Assembly: GCA_017882445.1 (NCBI GenBank)
Contig: JADGPK010000015.1
Location: forward strand, 1-50,389
Length of the DNA: 50,389 nucleotides
Direction: 5' to 3'
Origin: Solirubrobacteraceae bacterium
GTDB taxonomy: Bacteria; Actinomycetota; Thermoleophilia; Solirubrobacterales; Solirubrobacteraceae
The position numbers were made by a program, and so were the translations under genes. Every line of letters begins with the position of its first letter. Position 1 is the first letter of the stretch. Positions 2,665 to 50,275 of the stretch are shown piece after piece. The notes under the pieces were generated by a model that ran no database searches, was not told where the DNA came from, and saw nothing but the letters and a program-made list of their open reading frames with translations.

Positions 2665-3456
2665 CTACAGCTTGTGCGCCTCGGCGCGGCTGTAGAGCAG
2701 CGAGAGGAGGCGACGCTCGGCCTGCAGCGGGAATTGCCCCGAGTCGCTTGCCGCGTACAGGTCTACGGCTGCACCCTTGCCAGGCAAGTCCAGCACGGCA
2801 ACATCCTCATAGAAGTCGATAGGCACTCGACGAACGCGCAACCGTCCAGGCAGCGTGCGGGTGCTGTGGCGGCTCGAACCCGGACCTACTTCGACCGCGC
2901 CGGTCACTTCTCGGGTCTCGACGAGAGTGCCAACAACATGGAGCCGGAATGCCACGCTCCCGTCCATGCCGGAAAGGGGGTTTGCGAGCCACATGACCGA
3001 GACAGCGGCTCGGCGGGCTGGATACAGTTCGCGCGCATAGCGGACCTGACAGGCTCGACCACGCTCGCTGCCGATAGCGGCGATGTTGCGGGCCGCTTTC
3101 GCGGTGAGGTCCCGCGTCGAAGGGAGCCTGCCGAGTGGAGCCGCGACCCGCGAGGAAACGCCCTCGGCGCCGCTCCGCAGGAGTGGCGAGGAGATACCAA
3201 CCCGCTGGGCAGGGACGGGAACGCCCATGCACCGAGCGAGGCGCGCTTCCGATGCCGCATCGTGAAGCTCCCGTTCAGGCAACGCCGCACGCAGTCCTGG
3301 CAAATCGCCCACGCGGAGGTTGACTGCATGAGCGTAGGCGAGAGCCCGCGCCTTTGTGATGAAGCCGCCCTCCGTGCTGCCGCACCCTCCGAGTAGCACG
3401 CCGGTAACAGAGAGCACCAGCCCGGTGTGTGTGGCCCGCAGCATCGGCTGGATCAT
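2665..3456 (-). CDS. Secreted lipoprotein, unknown function
   Basis: Starting from ATG 3456 (MIQPMLRATH), a hydrophobic stretch leads to the lipobox LLGGC, after which the mature region starts GSTEGGFITKARALAYAHAVNL. A longer in-frame reading to 3639 only adds unlikely Arg-rich sequence before the signal peptide, so it was rejected; the ATG at 3444 is an alternative. The mature domain (about 240 residues) has a helical start, conserved-looking cysteines (LARCMGV, ACQVRYA) and a beta-rich end. Its arrangement parallels the neighbouring lipoprotein downstream (2071-2646), suggesting related exported proteins. No enzymatic motif is visible. Confidence 0.55.
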   Translation of the reverse strand: MIQPMLRATHTGLVLSVTGVLLGGCGSTEGGFITKARALAYAHAVNLRVGDLPGLRAALPERELHDAASEARLARCMGVPVPAQRVGISSPLLRSGAEGVSSRVAAPLGRLPSTRDLTAKAARNIAAIGSERGRACQVRYARELYPARRAAVSVMWLANPLSGMDGSVAFRLHVVGTLVETREVTGAVEVGPGSSRHSTRTLPGRLRVRRVPIDFYEDVAVLDLPGKGAAVDLYAASDSGQFPLQAERRLLSLLYSRAEAHKL

Positions 3457-4100: not shown

Positions 4101-5350
<1,250 letters not shown>

Positions 5351-45007: not shown

Positions 45008-47305
45008 ATGAGCGATGGGATCCACAGCCGATATGAGCCGCAAGCGATCGAGGCCCGTCGCCAGGCGGCCTGGCGCGAGCGCAACGCGTTCAGGACGCCG
45101 CCGCTGATCGACGATCAGCCGCACCTGTACATCAAGCCCTCCGCGCCGTTCACCTCGGGAAACATCCACATCGGCCACGTGCGCAGCTACTCGATCGGAG
45201 ACGCCTACGCCCGTTTCCGCCGAGCGCGCGGGGAGGCGGTGCTGTTCGCATTCGGCTTCGACGCCTTCGGGCTGCCCGCCGAGCTCGGCGCGATCGCCGG
45301 CGGAGAGCCTCCGAGCGACTGGGTCGAGCGCTGCGCCACCCACATGACCGGGCAGCTCGAGCGCCTCGGCTTCTCCTTCGACTGGGAGCGCTCCTTTCTC
45401 AGCTCCGACGCCGTCATGTACCGCTGGTCGCAGTGGCTGTTCCTCATCCTCCTCGACGCCGGGCTGATCTACCGAGGCACCGGGAACGTCGACTGGTGCG
45501 AGCACTGCGAAACGACGCTAGCTTCGATACAGGTCGAGCCGGGCGGCACCTGCTGGCGTTGCCACGGCCCCGTGAGGCTGATCGAGCTCCCGCAGTGGTA
45601 CCTGCGCATCAGCGCCTATCTCGAGGAGAACGACCGGCGCCTGGAGGAGCTCGCAGCGGGCGGCGTCTGGGACGAGGTCGCCCTCGGCTCCCAGCAGATC
45701 GTTCTCGGCCGCCTCGACGGCGTCGAGCTCGAGCTGGGCGCCCCCGACGGGAGCGCGCTGACCGTCTTCACCCCCTACCCCGAGGCACTCGGCGAGGCAC
45801 GCTTCGTGCTCATGTCCGCTCGCCACCCCGACGCCGACGAGTGGGCCTCGGACGCAGCGGTCAGCGAGCAGCTCGATCAGCTGCGCACGGGCGGCTGGGA
45901 GCGTAGCTCGCGCGAGGCCGAGACGATCCCCGTGATCGACACCGGGCGCGTCGTCCTCGGTCCCGACGGCGCCACGCTTCCCGTGCTCCTCTCTCCCCTC
46001 GTCGACTCGCGCTTCGGCCCCACCGTCGTATTCGGGATACCCACGAGCGATCGCACCGACGAGGTGATCGCGCGCAGGCTGGGCCTGGATGTGCCCGAGG
46101 TCGCGGATAGCGCCGCTGATGCCCATGCGTACGAGCAGGACGACGACGCGCCCGCTGACCGCCGTGCGCCCGTGCCCGGGAGCCGCCCGGCCGTTCGCTA
46201 CCGGGCGTTCGACTTCACGATCTCCCGCCAGCGCTCGTGGGGCACGCCGATCCCGGTCGTGTATTGCGAGAGCTGCGGCACTGTGCCCGTTCCACGCGAG
46301 CAGCTGCCGGTGCTGCTGCCGCTCGACATCCGCCCCACCGGCACCGGCAATCCGTTGGCCGAGCTGGAGGAGTTCGTCCAGACCACATGTCCGAGCTGCG
46401 GCGGGCCGGCGCGGCGAGAGACCGACACGCTGGACTGCCACTTCGACGCCCTCTGGCTATGGGTGCCCGCCTGCGTCCCCCCCGAGGCGCGTGAGGACTC
46501 ACTCGAGGAGATCCTCGCGCTGCCCGACCTGCGTCACTGGCTTCCCTCCGAGCGCCTGGTCGCGGGCTCAGACAGCGGGAACTTCGTGTTCGACCAGCGG
46601 ATCGTCACCAAGGCGCTGCGCGACATCGGCCCGCTCGCGTTCCTCGCCGACGGCGAGCCGTTCGCCGGCTGCCTGTTTCACGAGATGGTCGTGAGCGACG
46701 GGCGCAAGATGAGCAAGCACCTCGGCAACGTGGTCGACCCGGACGAGCTGATCGACCAGTACGGCGCGGACACCGTGCGGCTGGCGGTCCTCTACGCCGC
46801 GCGCCCGCAGAGGTCGCTGAACTGGAGCGACTCGGCGGTGCTGCGCTGCCACAGGTTTCTCGCCCAGGTGTGGGAGTACTCGCACAGGAAGATCGCCGAG
46901 GCGGGCGCCGATCCCGCGCGCGCCGTCGAGGCGGTTGGATCGACGGGCGGGACCGAGCAGACGAGAGATACCAGCGAGCACCTCAGGCTGAAACTGTCGC
47001 AGTGGTGCGCTGCCGCCGTGGAGAAGACCACCGAGGACATGGAGAACCTCGAGATGCACACCGCCGTTCGCAACGTCATGCGCCTGTTCGACCGGATCAA
47101 GGACTTCGAGAAACGTGTGATCGCGCGCGACGGTGAGCTCAGCCGCGCCAACCGCGACGCGCTCCTGGAGGCGCTCACGCTGCTCGCGCAGATGCTCGGT
47201 CCGCTGGCTCCGCACCTGGCCGAGGAGCTGTGGCTGGCGTTCGGCAATGACGAGCACGGCGCACAGATGCCGTGGCCCGTCGTATCGTTGCGGGTACCCG
47301 CATGA
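45008..47305 (+). CDS. Divergent leucyl-tRNA-synthetase-like protein (class I)
   Basis: The 765-residue protein keeps the class I fold: HIGH box GNIHIGH (51-57), FGFDAFGLPAE (83-92), a zinc site CEHC/CWRC (164-185), ISRQRSWGTPIP (405-415) and the KMSK box RKMSKHLGN (566-574). It aligns along a LeuRS but departs at specific places. The leucine-pocket YPSG reads APFTSG; the EHA..HLLY stretch reads GSDSGNFVFDQ; and the threonine-rich editing strand TTRPDT is TPYPEA (255-260), while the Asp pair after GIPTSD is kept. So it may activate a different amino acid or lack editing. It has no apparent promoter other than a possible -10, and the next gene overlaps its stop. Confidence 0.8.
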   Translation: MSDGIHSRYEPQAIEARRQAAWRERNAFRTPPLIDDQPHLYIKPSAPFTSGNIHIGHVRSYSIGDAYARFRRARGEAVLFAFGFDAFGLPAELGAIAGGEPPSDWVERCATHMTGQLERLGFSFDWERSFLSSDAVMYRWSQWLFLILLDAGLIYRGTGNVDWCEHCETTLASIQVEPGGTCWRCHGPVRLIELPQWYLRISAYLEENDRRLEELAAGGVWDEVALGSQQIVLGRLDGVELELGAPDGSALTVFTPYPEALGEARFVLMSARHPDADEWASDAAVSEQLDQLRTGGWERSSREAETIPVIDTGRVVLGPDGATLPVLLSPLVDSRFGPTVVFGIPTSDRTDEVIARRLGLDVPEVADSAADAHAYEQDDDAPADRRAPVPGSRPAVRYRAFDFTISRQRSWGTPIPVVYCESCGTVPVPREQLPVLLPLDIRPTGTGNPLAELEEFVQTTCPSCGGPARRETDTLDCHFDALWLWVPACVPPEAREDSLEEILALPDLRHWLPSERLVAGSDSGNFVFDQRIVTKALRDIGPLAFLADGEPFAGCLFHEMVVSDGRKMSKHLGNVVDPDELIDQYGADTVRLAVLYAARPQRSLNWSDSAVLRCHRFLAQVWEYSHRKIAEAGADPARAVEAVGSTGGTEQTRDTSEHLRLKLSQWCAAAVEKTTEDMENLEMHTAVRNVMRLFDRIKDFEKRVIARDGELSRANRDALLEALTLLAQMLGPLAPHLAEELWLAFGNDEHGAQMPWPVVSLRVPA

Positions 47306-48636
47306 GCACACAGACCGCACACAGCCCCCTGGGGTCCGGTCAGCGGACGCGTTCATGCGCGACCGGACTGGCCTGTCATCGCTGCGACAAGAGCTACGCG
47401 CTCACGGACACAGTGTTCGCGTGCCCGGACTGCGGCAAGGGGCTTGACATCGTCTACGACTACGAGTTGGCCGCCCGCCACTTCAGGGACGTACCCAGCT
47501 CGGAGCGCCCCGAGAACATCTGGCACTTCGAGGAGCTCCTGCCGATCGTCGACGCGTCGGCGCAGGCGCGCGTCGGACGCCACTCCGCCTACACGCCGCT
47601 GATCCGCGCGGACCGGCTCGGCGCGGAGCTCGGCCTCAGCAACCTGTACCTCAAGGACGACTCCACGTCGCGGCCGAGCCTCTCCTACAAGGACCGGGTG
47701 GTGTCGATGTCGGTCGCCCGTCTGCTCGAGCTCGGCAAGACCGAGATCGGCTGCGTCTCCACCGGCAACGTCGGCACCGCCATCGCCTCCTTCGCCGCCA
47801 AGGCCGGAGTGGACGCCTACGTCTTCTACCCCAACCGCCTCGAGGACATGAAGGCCCGCGCCTGCATGGCGCTCGGCGCCAAGGTCTGTCAGGTCGAGGG
47901 CAACTACGACGAGGCCAACCGCCGCTGCCGCGAAGTGGCCCTCGCGACGGGCATGGAGTTCGCCAACATCACCCTGCGACCCTTCTACGCCGAGGGCGCC
48001 AAGACCGCCGCATTCGAGATCGTCGAGCAGCTGGACTGGAACGCGCCCGAGCACATCATCACGGCCGCAGCCGGCGGCACGCTCTCCTCGCGCCTGCACA
48101 AGGGGCTTGGCGAGCTGCAGCTTCTCGGGCTCTCCGAGACCGACGCCACACGCATCCACATCGCCCAGCCGAGCGGCTGCAACCCGATCGCGAGCGCGAT
48201 CCTCGCCGAGGAGGCCGAGGTGCACGCGGTCATCCCCGAGACCGCCGCCCACTCGCTGGCGATCGGCGCGCCCGGCGACGGGTACCTGGTGATCGACGCG
48301 GTGCTCAAACGCGGAGGCACCGCGGGGTTCGCCAGCGACCCCGAGATCTTCGCCGGCATCGACCTGCTCGCTGCCACGGAGGGCCTGCTCACGGAGCCTG
48401 CAGGTGGCACAACAGTCGCGGTACTCGAGAAACTCGCGGCCGCCGGGCACTTCGGAGCCGACGAAACGGTCGTCGCGATCATCACCGGCAACGGCCTGAA
48501 GACGCTCGACGAGCACCCACAGAAGCCGTGGCCGGACAAGGTCGAATGCGAGCTCGACGCGATGCTGGCGGCGCTCAGCGATCTCAAGAGCGGCGCAACG
48601 CTCATGCAGAGCGCCCGCGAGCAGCTGCACCCGTAA
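47302..48636 (+). CDS. Threonine synthase-like PLP enzyme
   Basis: A fold-type II PLP enzyme of 444 residues, related to threonine synthase (which converts O-phosphohomoserine to threonine). The Schiff-base Lys130 is in SLSYKDRVVS, the phosphate-loop-type GNVGTAIASFAA follows, and the glycine-rich AAAGGTLSSRL is near 265. An N-terminal zinc ribbon, CHRC/CPDCG (25-44), precedes it. Where classic ThrC has NPTGSFKD, this has RPSLSYKD, a variant. ATG 47302 lies in the last codons of the LeuRS-like gene (ATGA overlap), so translation is coupled. Its substrate may differ from threonine synthase. Confidence 0.82.
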   Translation: MSTQTAHSPLGSGQRTRSCATGLACHRCDKSYALTDTVFACPDCGKGLDIVYDYELAARHFRDVPSSERPENIWHFEELLPIVDASAQARVGRHSAYTPLIRADRLGAELGLSNLYLKDDSTSRPSLSYKDRVVSMSVARLLELGKTEIGCVSTGNVGTAIASFAAKAGVDAYVFYPNRLEDMKARACMALGAKVCQVEGNYDEANRRCREVALATGMEFANITLRPFYAEGAKTAAFEIVEQLDWNAPEHIITAAAGGTLSSRLHKGLGELQLLGLSETDATRIHIAQPSGCNPIASAILAEEAEVHAVIPETAAHSLAIGAPGDGYLVIDAVLKRGGTAGFASDPEIFAGIDLLAATEGLLTEPAGGTTVAVLEKLAAAGHFGADETVVAIITGNGLKTLDEHPQKPWPDKVECELDAMLAALSDLKSGATLMQSAREQLHP

Positions 48637-50171: not shown

Positions 50172-50180
50172 CGCCCCCCT

Positions 50181-50267
<87 letters not shown>

Positions 50268-50275
50268 TGCAAAAT

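Follow-up and report, generated by a model that had tools for sequence, protein, structure and literature searches.

A Leucyl-tRNA Synthetase-Derived Family in Solirubrobacterales Whose Rebuilt Amino-Acid Pockets Follow Gene Context

The Locus

The window considered here is a whole stretch of 50,389 nucleotides from a Solirubrobacteraceae bacterium (NCBI GenBank assembly GCA_017882445.1, contig JADGPK010000015.1, positions 1 to 50,389 of the forward strand). Toward its end lie two overlapping genes, one encoding a class I synthetase paralogue that resembles leucyl-tRNA synthetase (LeuRS) and the other a ThrC-like enzyme dependent on pyridoxal phosphate (PLP). The LeuRS-like enzyme and its relatives, in which the leucine pocket has been rebuilt and the type of pocket follows the gene context, are the subject of this report. 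The features of the locus are given below, with pocket and editing residues numbered after Escherichia coli LeuRS, which served as the ruler for these columns.

45008-47305, plus strand: LeuRS-like gene, a class I synthetase paralogue of 765 amino acids, ATG start
45140-45160, plus strand: S45-A-P-F-T-S-G51 in place of M-(L/F)-PYPSG, first part of the pocket (M40S, L41A, Y43F)
45167-45178, plus strand: HIGH box, H54-I-G-H57
45638-46183, plus strand: region of the connective peptide 1 (CP1) editing domain, residues ~211-392 (PF13603 at residues 234-377; outer limits estimated)
45770-45787, plus strand: TPYPEA in place of TTRPDT (T248P, R249Y, D251E, T252A)
46049-46060, plus strand: D348 to D351, the retained equivalents of E. 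coli D342 and D345
46433-46462, plus strand: DCHFDALWLW in place of DTF(C/D)SSWY, pocket wall (S496A, Y499L)
46556-46585, plus strand: LVAGSDSGNF in place of YIGG-EHA-LH, pocket (Y527L, G529A, H533S, deletion near H537)
46706-46720, plus strand: KMSKH, the KMSKS box with its final S changed to H; K567-K570 intact
47009-47281, plus strand: anticodon-binding helical domain (PF08264 at residues 668-758), after which the protein ends
47302-47305, plus strand: ATGA overlap of the ThrC-like ATG and the LeuRS-like TGA stop
47302-48636, plus strand: ThrC-like PLP-dependent (PALP) enzyme, the coupled partner; the mechanical open reading frame starts at GTG 47272

The window protein finds its best match in the bacterial LeuRS profile TIGR00396 (leuS_bact), at 441.3 bits and thus under the curated cut-off of 548.4. 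An AlphaFold2 model built on a 27-row alignment has the LeuRS fold (mean predicted local distance difference test score 86), and all 50 of its listed PDB matches are LeuRS. The class I catalytic boxes, described as intact in a first-pass annotation made from the sequence alone, are indeed present: H54, G56, H57, and K567-K570 are invariant among 13 paralogues, which also retain D80 and the cysteines C164, C182, and C185.

A Paralogous Family Beside Canonical LeuRS

The host genome (G000, 95% complete) encodes a separate canonical LeuRS (G000:C216) that is 33% identical to the window protein. Each of the 13 paralogue-bearing genomes examined, the host's included, has a further LeuRS-type gene, with canonical motifs confirmed for seven of these. 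Paralogues were found in 7 of 61 genomes of the family (genera g1 and g22) and, at E<=1e-150, in 34 of the 399 class genomes. The latter comprise 16 of the 17 listed genomes of the same genus (our own counted), five of g22, 12 of a second family (f2), and one of a third (f76). A contig scan for relatives, whose results rest on the best 80 loci so that more distant members may exist outside the class, returned six paralogues among those 80, five from metagenome-assembled genomes (MAGs) of Solirubrobacterales (L047-L051) and one from Roseibium marinum (L099); the other 74 loci were closer to the host's canonical LeuRS. The nearest named relative, L047 from a Solirubrobacteraceae MAG, is 72% identical to the window protein. 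No match at E<=1e-118 was seen in 198 other genomes of the order to which Roseibium belongs. Three matches from the phylum (G259, G120, G414; 38-40%) were considered as paralogues and rejected, as all are canonical (PYPSG, TTRPDT, KMSKS).

A quick tree of 54 rows was computed from 14 paralogues, 27 of 90 canonical sequences (described below), six canonical LeuRS from the MAG and Roseibium genomes, five plasmid LeuRS, and two outgroups. The paralogues form a single clade, separate from the LeuRS with which they share a genome, with Shimodaira-Hasegawa-like approximate likelihood ratio support of 99 for all 14 and 100 for the 13 Solirubrobacterales members. The stem of this clade is long, leaving its placement within LeuRS unsure on the sequences compared. 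The first-pass annotation pointed to a paralogue and named as refutation the absence of any other leuS together with a position among normal LeuRS in a tree; given the second, canonical leuS and the separate clade, it is not refuted.

The Rebuilt Leucine Pocket

Ninety canonical LeuRS served for comparison: 67 of the 74 canonical contig-scan loci (seven were excluded for length, for having no KMSK, or for having no PYPSG string) and 23 of 24 other LeuRS (one excluded for length). In this set 223 columns are at least 95% invariant, of which 93 are retained by all 13 Solirubrobacterales paralogues and 71 by none. Eight pocket columns had been picked from LeuRS structures and from positions that PMC6610526 names for engineered LeuRS. 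All eight (M40, Y43, S496, Y499, Y527, G529, H533, H537) fall among the 71 (hypergeometric probability 8e-5). M40, Y43, S496, Y499, Y527, H533, and H537 are each invariant in 90/90 canonical sequences and retained in 0/13 paralogues, the Y43 and P44 columns being partly circular because the canonical set was filtered on the PYPSG string. The functional roles attached here to these pocket residues, and to T248, R249, and D345 of the editing domain, are the ones we assume for LeuRS in general.

The replacement of leucine-specific segments noted in the first-pass annotation stands on alignment: YPSG reads FTSG in the window protein, and QYIGG-EHA-LH reads LVAGSDSGNF with one residue fewer near H537, the exact column of this deletion varying with the alignment used. 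Judged from sequence, the resulting, more open pocket (M40S, L41A, Y499L, Y527L/V, H533S, and the residue lost near H537) suggests a side chain larger or more polar than that of leucine.

A leucyl-tRNA synthetase for resistance or backup, such as AgnB2 of pAgK84, would also appear as a second LeuRS-type gene, and AgnB2 itself carries P44T (PYTSG) as the window protein does. AgnB2, however, keeps M40, Y43, S496, Y499, Y527, H533, and H537, of which the window protein has none, and keeps T247, T248, R249, D251, and T252, of which the window protein has only T247; the window protein moreover stops after the helical domain. We consider a resistance copy highly improbable and dropped it, the canonical leucine pocket being gone.

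The Editing Domain and the C-Terminus

The threonine-rich editing motif TTRPDT, which the first-pass annotation saw as TPYPEA, does align with that string. T248, R249, and T252 are replaced in 13/13 paralogues, while T247 is retained in 12/13, D251 in 10/13, and D342 and D345 in 13/13. Over a wider sample of 31 distinct Solirubrobacterales loci (the window, 7 further loci, 5 from the contig scan, and 20 gathered later, less L273 and L279, which were taken as repeats of L047 and L048), the T252 position is occupied by A at 23 loci, S at 4, G at 2, and H at 2, while the D345 equivalent is retained in 31/31. As regards gene context, this sample covers the 34 class genomes apart from G793, G809, G814, G920, G941, G942, G945, and G966. 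The editing domain of LeuRS-T252A cleaves Leu-tRNA as well, according to the parts of PMC4510536 concerned with that mutant, and by analogy the T252A change suggests that the site in the window protein could at most clear mischarged leucine. As T248 and R249 are gone too, such rejection of leucine is only a possibility. The non-editing enzyme also raised in the first-pass annotation is a possible reading: CP1 is retained with its invariant Asp, but the threonine-rich motif is replaced.

Beyond the point at which the window protein ends, canonical LeuRS continue for a median of 64 residues (n=90) and the paralogues for 0-15 (13/13), so that the LeuRS C-terminal domain is missing. Among the 20 later rows the extension measures 0-13 residues in all but L265, where it reaches 37 and the gene call is doubtful. 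The role of this domain we take to be binding of the tRNA elbow.

Selection and Maintenance

Comparison of the window gene with that of L047 gave a ratio of nonsynonymous to synonymous differences per site (pN/pS) of 0.37 overall, with 0.20 and 0.26 for the catalytic halves, 0.53 for CP1, and 0.59 for the helical domain. For canonical LeuRS of the identical genome pair the values were 0.26 overall, 0.16 and 0.17, 0.33, and 0.36, respectively. The order of constraint across domains is therefore equal in the two genes, with constraint on the paralogue weaker throughout. The paralogue is under purifying selection. A catalytically dead, regulatory, or decaying copy might be read from the CP1 and helical domains, which evolve faster than in canonical LeuRS. 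Yet no internal stop occurs in the class-scan paralogue matches listed, the catalytic residues are invariant, catalytic-half pN/pS over three pairs is 0.12-0.30, and the gene has been retained in three families, which makes a dead copy scarcely credible.

Pocket Types and Gene Context

Neighboring genes were compared over the 31 loci, with gene calls from a simple GC-position rule that is error-prone; it missed the ThrC-like gene of L271, which tblastn finds. The window type of pocket, class I (S40, A/S41, F43, A496, L499, A529, S533), occurs at 22 loci. The residues at 40, 43, 496, 499, 529, and 533 are identical in all 22, although pairwise differences among 20 of these proteins amount to 10-49%. 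A ThrC-like gene adjoins 21 of the 22 on the same strand. In seven (L048-L051, L278, L282, L283) a helix-turn-helix gene on the opposite strand lies between the LeuRS-like and ThrC-like genes, and a GtrA-type membrane gene lies upstream (found by Pfam for L048 and by tblastn for the others). In L041, L042 (both by Pfam), and L277 (by tblastn) the pair is followed in line by a PF03706 flippase-like gene (TIGR00374/PF03706, an MprF-like membrane region).

Class II pockets, with A, C, F, G, Q, W, and G at the class I positions, were found at five loci of g22. None of the five stretches seen contains a ThrC-like gene, and an alcohol-dehydrogenase-like gene lies divergently at each of the five loci. 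The remaining four Solirubrobacterales loci have pockets of other types. L046, a second copy in genome G054 with its own pocket type, is divergent from SbnA (406 bits, cut-off 350) and SbnB (358 bits, cut-off 327) genes, which serve 2,3-diaminopropionate synthesis; SbnB was over its cut-off in one of 13 genomes, that of L046. L265 and L266, also second copies, share a fourth pocket and are divergent from an isochorismatase-HypE-HypF row, in which HypF is over its cut-off at both loci and HypE is over its cut-off in L265 and in L266 is recognized by its AIRS domains. The pocket of L267 is of a fifth type, and a LysA gene lies divergently at a distance of about 1.6 kb. The Roseibium relative has a sixth pocket and lies in a row of PqqD, SPASM radical SAM, HprK-like, and B12 radical SAM genes. 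Pocket type thus follows gene context. The proposal in the first-pass annotation that the paralogue handles a new amino acid gains support here, since the pocket types track the amino-acid genes linked to them.

Several further genes were seen near members of the family. The window LeuRS-like gene is flanked by guaB3-like and lexA-like genes, both on the opposite strand. Hopanoid-type genes lie beside L041 (by Pfam) and L042 (by tblastn); neither these nor the flippase-like gene was seen beside the window gene. L265 has a gene of the non-discriminating aspartyl-tRNA synthetase type, over its cut-off, downstream on the LeuRS-like strand. At L268 a fusion of lysyl-tRNA synthetase (LysRS) and LPG_synthase_C, with the LysRS part first (L268:5639-8950), lies a few kb from the class II LeuRS-like gene.

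The ThrC-Like Partner

The ThrC-like protein is nearest the PRK08197 type, yet falls under its cut-off (248 vs 303). An orthologue above 590 bits occurs among the 61 family genomes in only four, all of g1, where it invariably adjoins the LeuRS-like gene; no such orthologue occurs in the three genomes of g22. Its PLP-site segments differ from those of both relatives in the host, NPTxSFKDR reading RPSLSYKDR and the VPV loop reading TAAAGGT. Over 20 class I pairs (L271 left out) the distances of LeuRS-like and ThrC-like proteins correlate (r 0.83; 0/2000 permutations), which shows joint inheritance, not joint function.

The substrate might be an ordinary proteinogenic amino acid, threonine or another standard one, supplied by the ThrC-like enzyme, as this protein scores over the TIGR00260 threonine-synthase cut-off (197.1 vs 167.1 bits). 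The host genome, however, has two other thrC-family genes over the cut-off, the closer being 44% identical to the ThrC-like protein, and other pocket classes lie near SbnA/SbnB or have no ThrC-like gene, so that a single standard amino acid fails for the family. A standard amino acid is accordingly an unlikely substrate.

The Acceptor

Retention of the anticodon-binding domain and of CP1 with its Asp favors tRNA as the acceptor, and loss of the C-terminal domain suggests that this would not be tRNA-Leu in the usual way. A tRNA-independent ligase, which would hand an aminoacyl-adenylate to an amine, a carrier protein, or a peptide, is possible if somewhat doubtful. It would accord with the missing C-terminal domain (13/13), with the PqqD and radical SAM surroundings of the Roseibium relative, and with the second tRNA-Leu(UAG) of the host genome, which has no evident counterpart in G014, G050, or G449. 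The retained anticodon-binding domain speaks against it, as does CP1 with the D345 equivalent at every one of the 31 loci, an arrangement sensible mainly for a tRNA-linked product.

The host genome gave 48 tRNA-model matches, 45 of them over cut-off, and ARAGORN was run on all. A 96-nt tRNA at G000:C104:101841-101936 (L158; L262:2342-2437) has the anticodon UUC by Rfam alignment and A73, and UUC tRNAs of 96-97 nt are also present in L258, L259, L260, and L261. With the D-loop insert left out, its body is 57% identical to the host's own tRNA-Glu(CUC) and at most 74% identical to any other tRNA of the genome. Four pairs of the D-loop hairpin show double-sided (compensatory) changes among four sequences. 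In a survey of 11 genomes, all of the family, this tRNA was full-length in all five tested that have the ThrC-linked pair (G000, G014, G035, G050, and G449, the genome of L047) and in none of the other six (G022, G040, G054, G008, G012, G013), three of which have only the stand-alone or SbnA/B type of LeuRS-like gene; partial matches in G012 and G013 are tRNA-Lys. Among these 11 genomes the full-length form occurs in the window's genus alone. A natural charging system of orthogonal type, in which the LeuRS-derived enzyme would act with its own biosynthetic partner and a dedicated, odd UUC tRNA, nevertheless seems to us very unlikely. The UUC tRNA may equally be the ordinary tRNA-Glu(UUC) of the genus, as it is the sole UUC tRNA that turned up in the host genome.

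An extra conserved tRNA-Leu was rejected as the acceptor: G014, G050, and G449 show one match above 100 bits each (tRNA-Leu(UAG) by ARAGORN) and G035 shows none. Other observations on tRNA genes are recorded here for completeness. At 1735-1781 of L258 (G449:C171), 3.3 kb from the full UUC tRNA, 47 bases repeat its 3' half at 94%, in the manner of an attachment site left by an integrated element. Two tRNA-Leu(UAG) genes lie about 1.3 kb apart in L188 (G000:C40), at 3229-3312 and 4583-4667; the weaker copy, with 35 bits and mismatches in the acceptor and anticodon stems, is probably decaying. A tRNA-Leu(GAG) gene in the window (50180-50268) lies past the lexA-like gene; one is also close to the lexA-like gene in L040, and there is no tie to the LeuRS-like gene. 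A weak tRNA-like match of 32.9 bits (L173:70-148, G000:C52) has CCC at the anticodon position, a lengthened D-arm, and no ARAGORN call. The two weakest, equal matches (L170, L171), at two contig ends, have ends that we take to resemble the 3' end of transfer-messenger RNA.

Proposed Activity and Significance

The computations show a conserved paralogue with a rebuilt pocket, an editing domain that stays in altered form, no C-terminal domain, and a gene linked to others. From these results we on balance favor a LeuRS-derived family that activates non-leucine, probably non-proteinogenic amino acids supplied by partner enzymes, most likely for a special use linked to tRNA. An apparently active class I site, a rebuilt open pocket, and an adjoining PLP enzyme together argue that the amino acid activated is not leucine. 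We infer that the window enzyme is active and would adenylate such an amino acid, probably a non-proteinogenic one, which the ThrC-like PLP enzyme of the same operon would supply as its product. The 3' end of a tRNA would most likely receive the activated amino acid, for a specialized end use, e.g., in a small metabolite or an envelope lipid. For the latter, the hopanoid-type and flippase-like neighbors of L041 and L042 hint at lipid aminoacylation as a lead.

Several points weigh against this proposal. The partner scores as a threonine synthase, as given above, and one class I member (L281) has no ThrC-like gene within the 16 kb seen. The five class II loci stand alone, with no adjoining amino-acid gene found (the contig of L268 ends just behind the gene). 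The SbnA/B, HypE/F, and LysA contexts come from one, two, and one loci, respectively, and elsewhere HypE/F and LysA serve ordinary functions. Roseibium is a long branch, and its join with the clade may reflect long-branch attraction in the sequence tree. Loss of the C-terminal domain could mean that use of tRNA has been lost, and the faster evolution of CP1 and the helical domain than in canonical LeuRS may indicate that editing or tRNA binding is relaxed.

Synthetase paralogues that have taken on new functions are familiar. Natural shifts in the amino-acid specificity of LeuRS-type enzymes have, to our knowledge, seldom been documented, and a family descended from LeuRS in which several types of pocket go with different amino-acid genes would, by comparison with what is known to us, be new. 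No paper on such a family was found among titles and abstracts of the open-access literature, a weak negative as most subscription papers are outside that scope. PMC6544083, in the sections that concern LeuRS, mentions it only for a marker indel. If the proposal is true, the family would offer a natural series showing how the LeuRS pocket is re-tuned, new enzymes with which unusual amino acids could be loaded, and an entry point to a tRNA-linked or adenylate-linked product in little-studied actinobacteria.

Comparison With Known Systems

The window protein shares with bacterial LeuRS (TIGR00396) the fold, the HIGH and KMSK motifs, C164/C182/C185, the CP1 insertion, and the anticodon-binding domain; it differs in its score under the cut-off, in the replaced leucine pocket and threonine-rich editing motif, and in having no C-terminal domain. 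AgnB2, the agrocin-84-resistant LeuRS of pAgK84 (PDB 5AH5), has in common with it the standing of a second LeuRS-type enzyme and P44T, but keeps the canonical pocket and editing motif and has 814 amino acids against 765. E. coli LeuRS engineered for unnatural amino acids is altered at positions that include, in the relevant passages of PMC6610526, 40, 41, 252, 499, 527, and 537; the window protein is changed at all of these, and Y499L and T252A are identical in the two. Unlike these variants the window enzyme occurs in nature, has no C-terminal domain, and has a PLP enzyme as its coupled partner. That partner has the PALP domain in common with threonine synthase (TIGR00260) and differs from it in its PLP-site segments and in missing the PRK08197 cut-off. 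MshC, the ligase of mycothiol derived from cysteinyl-tRNA synthetase (CysRS), is a precedent for a class I synthetase relative with another acceptor. It differs in its CysRS origin, whereas the window protein is derived from LeuRS and retains both CP1 and the anticodon-binding domain.

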